From: Sulfuricurvum kujiense DSM 16994
GTDB lineage: Bacteria > Campylobacterota > Campylobacteria > Campylobacterales > Sulfurimonadaceae
Assembly (NCBI RefSeq): GCF_000183725.1
Contig: NC_014762.1
Span: 1,550,001 to 1,614,000 of the forward strand
DNA length: 64,000 nt
Direction of reading: 5' to 3'
Both the position numbers and the translations under genes were made by a program. Numbering within the stretch: the stretch's first letter is position 1; the number at the start of each line of letters is the position of its first letter. The notes below the pieces were generated by a model. It saw nothing but the letters and a program-made list of their open reading frames with translations. It was not told the origin of the DNA and did not search any database. Positions 56,894-58,989 of the stretch are shown piece after piece.

Positions 56894-58804
56894 CTATTCA
56901 TCCTTAAACTTATCGCGGATGATAAGAAATTCCGACATATTGTCCAAAAAGAGTTTGGTTAGCGTCGGATCGAAATGTTTCCCGCTTTCATTACGGAAAT
57001 ATTCTAAAACCTCATCAAGTTCCCAAGCCTCTTTATAAACCCGTTTTGTCCCTAAGGCATCGAATACGTCTGCGATAGCGGTAATACGCCCGAACATATG
57101 GATCTCTTCCTCTTGAAGCCGTCTGGGATACCCGGAACCGTCCCATTTTTCATGATGCTGATAGGAGATAATAGCCGCCGCTTTTAGAATCGGTCTCTCC
57201 GATTTTTTCAATATATTAAACCCGATATCGCAGTGGCTGCGCATCACTTCCCATTCACCCTCATCGAGTTGCCCCGGTTTTGTCAGAATACTATCAGGAA
57301 TGCCGACTTTACCGATATCGTGCATCGGTGATGCCGCATACAACAAATCCGCTTCTTCCTCACTCATTCCAGCTTTGATGGCAAGAAGGCGTGAATACTC
57401 GGCAACCCGTTTGACATGATTGCCCGTCTCTTTACTCCGAGTCTCTCCGATTTCACCCATCTTATAGATCACTTCACGCTGCGTATCAACAATATCCTCT
57501 TGCAGTAAAAGAAGTTCCGTCACATCATACTGGATACCCATGTATTCGCGAATCTCTTCATTTTTATCAAGTATCGGAACAATAATCGTATCGAGAAAAA
57601 TAAACTCTCCGTTTTTGGTGCGGTTTTTAATAATCCCTTTCCATATTTTCTTCTGCTGAATCGTATCCCACAGCTCTTTGTAGGTGGAACTCGGAGTAGC
57701 CGCATCACGCAGCCGTTTATGGGTCGAACCGATAAGCTCTTCTTTTGCATACCCCGTTAGCTGCTCATGCGTATCGTTAAGATAGGTAATCACCCCTTTG
57801 GGATTTGTACGGATATACGACGATGACTGCTCGATCGCCCTTTCGTACTGCGCCAGCAGCGATATCTTCTCATTCAGCGTCTGAGAGCTGTCTTGTAAAT
57901 CTTTTTCCAAAAGCTCTTTAAGCTCTTCAAACTCGGTGATATCGTGGCGGATCGCTATGTATTCGATAATTTCGTTCTTTTCGTTCTTTTGCGGAATAAT
58001 CGTCGCATCGACGATGTAGGCAGAACCGTCTTTTTTCCTGTTTTTTATCTTCCCATGCCAAATATTGCCCTCTTTAATGGTTCTCCACATCTCTTTAAAG
58101 ACCGATGAGGGCATATCCGGATGGCGTACGATATTATGATGTTTCCCCATCAGCTCATTTAGACTGTATCCGCTTAGCGTTATAAAAGCTTCGTTAGCGT
58201 AGGTAATACGCCCTTTGGTATCGGTTTTGGACAACAGTGTGGTTTTATCGACAACTGCTTTATATTGGTCAAGAAGCGCAATGGAGTGGAGGTGTTTACG
58301 ATAGAAAATCCCGATAATATAAAGAGCGACGAGGACGGAGAAGAATTTTAGATACTGCTCGATGTAGATTCTATTGATATCGTTCTCGTGGCGTTTTGAA
58401 ACGACATATCCGGTAAGTCTATTTTGTGAATTTTTGACGGCGGCAAAAACAAGCACTGTGCTCGCCGGTATAGAATCCATGCGATAGAGTACAAACGATT
58501 TTTTTTGGGATACATGCGATTTTATCTCATCTTGAAATGGCGCGAATTTGTCCGCATGAAAATCTTTTACGGCATACCAACTGTACTCTGCATCAAAATT
58601 TTCGTTCATCTTCTGGATGATTTCATCGTTCTCAACCGCCCCGCCGGTCGAAAAACTCTTAACTTTATCGTTATATTGAAGCTGCAAATCGTATATTTTT
58701 TCTTGAAAATAGGTGGATTTTTTGTATTCGAACTCGAGAAATAAAAATCCGATAGAGAAAAGGATAATGAGAAGAGCAATTTTATTAAAGACGATTCTTT
58801 GCAT
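56894..58804 (-). CDS. Membrane PAS-PAS-HD-GYP c-di-GMP phosphodiesterase
   Basis: 636 residues. An N-terminal membrane helix (6-24), a short periplasmic sensor region, a second helix near 150-168, two PAS domains (about 180-300 and 320-440, each ending in an IRHDITE or IQYDVTE segment), then an HD-GYP domain with HDIGK at about 495 and HHEKWDGSGYP near 550. The domain hydrolyses c-di-GMP. It lies about 45 bases downstream of a c-di-GMP-I riboswitch, so expression should respond to the same ligand it destroys. Confidence 0.92.
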   Translation of the reverse strand: MQRIVFNKIALLIILFSIGFLFLEFEYKKSTYFQEKIYDLQLQYNDKVKSFSTGGAVENDEIIQKMNENFDAEYSWYAVKDFHADKFAPFQDEIKSHVSQKKSFVLYRMDSIPASTVLVFAAVKNSQNRLTGYVVSKRHENDINRIYIEQYLKFFSVLVALYIIGIFYRKHLHSIALLDQYKAVVDKTTLLSKTDTKGRITYANEAFITLSGYSLNELMGKHHNIVRHPDMPSSVFKEMWRTIKEGNIWHGKIKNRKKDGSAYIVDATIIPQKNEKNEIIEYIAIRHDITEFEELKELLEKDLQDSSQTLNEKISLLAQYERAIEQSSSYIRTNPKGVITYLNDTHEQLTGYAKEELIGSTHKRLRDAATPSSTYKELWDTIQQKKIWKGIIKNRTKNGEFIFLDTIIVPILDKNEEIREYMGIQYDVTELLLLQEDIVDTQREVIYKMGEIGETRSKETGNHVKRVAEYSRLLAIKAGMSEEEADLLYAASPMHDIGKVGIPDSILTKPGQLDEGEWEVMRSHCDIGFNILKKSERPILKAAAIISYQHHEKWDGSGYPRRLQEEEIHMFGRITAIADVFDALGTKRVYKEAWELDEVLEYFRNESGKHFDPTLTKLFLDNMSEFLIIRDKFKDE

Positions 58805-58844
58805 TGTTTCCCGATTTCATAAACATTAAATAGCAAAGACAATA

Positions 58845-58920
58845 AATGACAACCCGGCTATCTCGCTTTGAGACCCGCGGCTTTCCGTCCCTGCTTCACA
58901 GCAGGTTTGGCTTTGAATTT
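58845..58920 (-). promoter_or_regulatory. Cyclic-di-GMP-I (GEMM) riboswitch upstream of the HD-GYP gene
   Basis: Read on the minus strand, the sequence shows the GEMM blocks in order: GCCAAACC (58911-58904), a P2 stem CCTGCT-GTGA-AGCAGG with a GNRA loop (58905-58890), then GGACGGAAAGCC (58890-58879) and a P3 arm GCGGGTCTC...GAGATAGCCGGGTT ending near 58848. In Vc2 numbering G20 is kept and A47 is kept. The 21-46 pair is C-G instead of G-C, a compensated change. The base at the C92 position appears to be U. Length and linkage to a phosphodiesterase fit the class. Confidence 0.85.
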
Positions 58921-58989
58921 TCATTTTTTTTATTCTACTATTATAATTCTTAATAGTATTGGAACGGTTACAAAAATCGATTATTTACA

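Follow-up and report, generated by a model that had tools for sequence, protein, structure and literature searches.

Class I c-di-GMP riboswitches (GEMM-I, Rfam RF01051) have Vc2 of Vibrio cholerae as their type member, and both ON and OFF switches are known in this aptamer family, as stated in the accessible text of a previous report (PMC9262584). Excerpts of further papers record that c-di-GMP enzymes are said to be rare targets of c-di-GMP switches (PMC6366702) and that GEMM RNAs lying before such enzyme genes are already on record (PMC3971182). For the ligand pocket, the available portion of PMC9049102 describes G20 and C92 as less conserved than A47, and gives an affinity for c-di-GMP of 4900 nM, down from 0.011 nM, when G20A and C92U are introduced together. 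The same double mutant shifts its preference to c-di-AMP (PMC9049102 and PMC7288161, accessible parts). No affinity of an aptamer with C92U alone was found in the accessible text of the literature searched, and no paper on a c-di-GMP switch of Sulfuricurvum or Sulfurimonas was recognised in our literature searches.

The DNA analysed here is a stretch of 64,000 nucleotides from Sulfuricurvum kujiense DSM 16994, hereafter the window. When this 64-kb window was scanned with cmscan, RF01051 was the sole Rfam match, at 58921-58845 on the minus strand. The match scored 62.3 bits (E 8.7e-10) against a gathering score of 35 bits, and it covered model positions 1-87 at full length without being cut off; a chance origin at this score is very unlikely. 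An earlier note on this DNA had placed a c-di-GMP-I riboswitch at 58845-58920 and had proposed an Infernal scan with the GEMM-I model as a check, and the scan confirmed both the family and the place. The predicted fold of the aptamer was better than that of most dinucleotide shuffles (z -2.3; 4/200 shuffles equally good), and sequence and fold together define P2 as CCUGCU-GUGA-AGCAGG, with a GNRA-type loop, GUGA, as its cap. The switch is present as a single copy in the 2.82-Mb genome. By eye, a likely -10 box, TATAAT, was recognised at 58940-58945 on the minus strand, in a stretch that is identical in the ortholog G406 described below. This box lies 18 nt upstream of the aptamer and implies a transcript start near 58933, about 12 nt before the aptamer. 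No -35 box was found at the TATAAT, and a consensus promoter scan listed no minus-strand promoter.

The ATG at 58804, which lies 40 nt 3' of the aptamer on the same strand, opens a 636-codon frame (56894-58804, minus strand). The encoded protein of 636 residues contains two PAS domains and an HD_5 domain of the HD-GYP type (1.5e-31, Pfam). Its catalytic domain was aligned with 4mcw, an HD-GYP enzyme of solved structure, over residues 6-201 of the 201 queried (E 3.2e-61), and the HD, HHE and GYP motifs are present; judged from these sequence features, the protein probably degrades c-di-GMP. The same-strand HD-GYP gene that had been proposed is therefore the PAS-PAS-HD_5 frame at 58804-56894. 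The proposal was right to place it close downstream, and the gap, put at about 45 bases, measures 40 nt to the ATG. A weak Shine-Dalgarno-like GGGA was read from the sequence at 58809-58812 (minus strand). A separate 13-codon frame (ATG TTT ATG ... TAA; 58826-58785, minus strand) overlaps the HD-GYP start out of frame; it has the same length in G406 and is without an evident ribosome site.

When the N-terminal 200 residues of the protein were compared with the genomes of named species, one relative was found, in the Sulfuricurvum MAG isolate nzgw179 (G406). The G406 protein is 89% identical and has the same leader upstream. Identity between the window and G406 was 19/21 columns in the start region, 69/77 in the aptamer and 35/40 in the linker. 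The two genes are identical at 108 of 199 fourfold-degenerate sites (54%), compared with 88-90% for aptamer and linker. Since the leader, linker included, is conserved well beyond the fourfold-degenerate sites, it is under selection. Full-length orthologs of the gene were found in 2 of the 41 genomes of the genus, both with the switch; the third switch of the genus, in G397, has C at position 92 and precedes an unrelated lipoprotein-like gene. In the window and in G406, the promoter, the switch and the HD-GYP gene sit between thiS and orf98. In 14 of the 28 other genus loci around the same methyltransferase gene, thiS directly faces orf98 at a distance of 11-31 nt; in the other 14, the stretch read does not show orf98 as the neighbour of thiS, and these loci decide nothing. 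In G440, a genome of another genus in the same family, the gene that starts 63 nt after a switch encodes an HD-GYP protein of 787 aa, which resembles the protein described above at its N-terminus and carries an additional sensor region. The arrangement is shared with a second Sulfuricurvum and with a member of another genus. The switch appears to move together with its gene, both having apparently been gained as a unit. Collectively, the element is a real class I c-di-GMP switch lying before an HD-GYP gene; it is conserved, of a known kind and probably functional.

The distribution of RF01051 was surveyed at three levels, and it was found in 43/397 genomes sampled across the phylum, 73/228 genomes of the family and 3/41 genomes of the genus. 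These scans yielded 203 distinct places, including three below the family cut-off, at which the aptamer and the downstream DNA were read. With home-made profiles, an HD-GYP-type gene was found downstream in at least four of them (the window, G406, G440 and G387), and a GGDEF gene in none, within the downstream DNA read. Since this DNA was limited (median 2422 nt per locus, less than 600 nt in 7 cases, and no frame called in 3/203), the counts of genes after the switch are lower bounds.

Several other features were seen among these places. A20, the mark of cGAMP riboswitches, occurs at L170:2459-2539 (-), L171:2417-2498 (-) and L173:213-295 (+), 359-465 nt before a frame resembling ribosomal protein S2; a cGAMP-type aptamer in Campylobacterota, if real, would be noteworthy. 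A subgroup in genus g2 (e.g. L026, L047, L135 and L142) has GCCAACC in place of GCCAAAC, lacks the G that usually follows P2, with T or C there, and lies upstream of small secreted-looking proteins. Position 16 is C in 30/203 matches. L133 (G457:C1:1936859-1939620) has four aptamers, arranged as two tandem pairs before two related genes, and tandem pairs are also present in L071 and L085.

Under the Vc2 numbering that we take to apply to this RNA, the model alignment places G at position 20 (58911), A at position 47 (58884) and U at position 92 (58849), all on the minus strand. This numbering was cross-checked with the cGAMP aptamer 4YAZ, in which J1/2, A41 and C75 correspond (PMC6274999, accessible part). 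Across the 203 places, position 20 carries G 200 times and A three times; at position 92, C was read in 196 places, U in 6 and A in a single one. Two of the seven cases without C92 are weak matches (L192, 37.0 bits; L196, 29.4 bits). Because G406 reads C, U92 represents a change within this lineage. C92 is usual rather than invariant and is not a criterion for membership of RF01051; U92 lowers the claim about the ligand. With C at position 21 in 199/203 matches, a C-G pair at 21-46 is the norm of the lineage and not peculiar to the window RNA. P1 can be drawn with 4 bp without a closing G-C pair or with 5 bp and a longer joint, the 5' pocket strand being without the usual G that closes P1 at 5 nt from G20. 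That usual register is enriched in the survey (23 loci versus 6.1 in permutations), and the window RNA fits it only without the G-C closing pair. Given the uncommon U92 in the pocket, the ligand affinity or specificity of this aptamer may be altered, and the ortholog pair, with C92 in one and U92 in the other, constitutes a natural experiment on that base in a feedback loop.

Beside its one c-di-GMP-I switch, the 2.82-Mb genome contains 83 GGDEF and 16 HD_5 matches, and the lone switch would thus govern a putative c-di-GMP enzyme in a cyclase-rich genome. Of the 83 GGDEF domains, 82 were read, and 65 of these have the active-type motif. At what we take to be the place of the Hypr Ser within the GGDEF sequence motif, all 65 have Asp (58 by pattern, 7 by eye), and none is therefore of the Hypr type. 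The Hypr signature was taken from the accessible text of PMC6456294. No match to a SMODS synthase was found in the genome. c-di-GMP is presumably made in large amounts in this organism, whereas its genome showed no known producer of cGAMP. The domain counts fit the statement, in the available part of a review, that S. kujiense ranks with the genomes that have the highest density of c-di-GMP turnover proteins (PMC10333796).

No terminator-like site was found on the minus strand between the aptamer and the gene, as the earlier note had also observed, and transcription attenuation was rejected on this ground. Control at translation is likely and may be of either sign. In predicted folds, the linker arm UCUUUGC (58833-58839, minus strand) has two possible partners: the start-codon strand GCAAAGA (58796-58802, minus strand) and, for 5 nt, the pocket strand CAAAG. 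The former pairing (58839-58833 with 58802-58796) forms a hairpin that surrounds the weak ribosome site, and both of its arms are identical in G406. In partial transcripts, before the start codon is made, the linker arm was predicted to pair with the pocket strand at 11-34% for the window and 18-60% for G406. The modelled cost of opening the start site was 7.3 kcal/mol with the aptamer constrained to its fold and 6.1 kcal/mol otherwise in the window, and 7.3 versus 4.6 kcal/mol in G406. The start-codon hairpin alone was matched by 20/200 shuffles, and among shuffled linkers 40% of trials reached the 5-nt pocket pairing and 15% the 7-nt start pairing. No covariation was found for the start-codon hairpin, since the two leaders are nearly identical. 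The folding thus leans weakly towards an OFF switch, near chance by the shuffled controls. The earlier proposal of translational control agrees with the missing terminator and with the start-codon hairpin, although this hairpin is itself near chance. A general Campylobacterota platform, in which the linker pairs with both the pocket strand and the start codon, was considered over 156 distinct loci and rejected, being barely above shuffles.

Given these results, we consider it fairly probable that the switch responds to c-di-GMP by controlling translation of the HD-GYP gene, in one direction or the other. The transcript would start just upstream of the aptamer, and the aptamer would sense c-di-GMP, with U in place of C92 probably lowering its affinity. 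Ligand in the pocket would change the accessibility of the start codon, which lies 40 nt downstream, and the c-di-GMP level of the cell would in this way set the amount of an enzyme that degrades c-di-GMP. We suggest, with little firmness, that a filled pocket keeps its strand from the linker arm UCUUUGC, leaving this arm to close over the start codon. Closure of the start site by the ligand would make this an OFF switch within a positive-feedback loop, a sign to which we give roughly an even chance; that expression does not respond at all seems unlikely.

The sign could also be the opposite, with the ligand opening the start site and negative feedback keeping c-di-GMP in range. For an enzyme that breaks down the very molecule inducing it, an ON switch would be the simplest arrangement, and the unbound fold of G440 allows the pocket strand UUAGC to pair next to the ribosome site, which suggests this sign. 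Both Sulfuricurvum leaders are harder to open at the start site with the aptamer kept folded, however, if by a small margin, and we regard an ON switch as a possible but distinctly less probable outcome. The switch may alternatively be decaying, such that, after a recent change to U92, c-di-GMP is no longer usefully bound and expression of the gene has escaped ligand control. The rarity of U92 (6/203 matches), the C in the ortholog and the loss of c-di-GMP affinity in the G20A/C92U mutant point this way, but the remaining aptamer still scores 62.3 bits and its leader is conserved. Moreover, the double mutant differs from a single one, and a Vc2-like aptamer could lose much of its affinity and still sense cellular c-di-GMP; decay therefore appears rather unlikely.

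Since U92 pairs with adenine while G20 is kept, a pocket that prefers 3',3'-cGAMP, followed by an HD-GYP enzyme that degrades cGAMP, was also weighed. In favour of this, the G20A/C92U mutant shifts to c-di-AMP, and some HD-GYP enzymes are cGAMP-specific (5z7c). The genome, however, has neither a SMODS synthase nor a Hypr-type GGDEF among its 65 active-type domains, the two orthologs themselves differ at position 92, and the catalytic domain is nearer to 4mcw than to 5z7c, so that a changed ligand is very improbable. A transcript supplied solely by read-through from the thiS operon is less likely, because a conserved TATAAT stands 18 nt before the aptamer and the cassette lies behind thiS. A more speculative thought, to which we attach little credence, is that a natural U92 GEMM-I pocket with G20 kept represents either a much weaker c-di-GMP affinity, retuned for a cyclase-rich cell, or a 3',3'-cGAMP preference, in both cases before an enzyme that degrades its own ligand, giving a bistable loop. 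Translational control in answer to c-di-GMP remains the reading that we prefer. The interpretation in the earlier note is thus partly supported: its family, place, same-strand HD-GYP gene and lack of a terminator stand, and translation is the likelier level of control. It had overlooked U92, which makes ligand binding doubtful at one pocket base, and had left the sign of the feedback open, for which the folding gives a weak lean to OFF, near chance.

Compared with described systems, the aptamer resembles Vc2 in its full-length match to the model, in P2 and P3, in the GNRA-type P2 loop GUGA, and in G20 and A47. It differs from Vc2-type switches in having U for C92 and a C-G pair at 21-46, the latter usual for its lineage. 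The C-G pair is shared with the 3',3'-cGAMP riboswitch of Geobacter (GEMM-Ib, 4YAZ), where it corresponds to C15-G40 (PMC6274999, accessible part); unlike that RNA, the window has G rather than A at position 20 (58911) and U at the equivalent of C75. The catalytic domain of the encoded protein aligns with the HD-GYP phosphodiesterase 4mcw; unlike 4mcw, the window protein also has a sensor region and two PAS domains. In contrast to the usual c-di-GMP-I switches, the gene downstream here encodes an HD-GYP enzyme.
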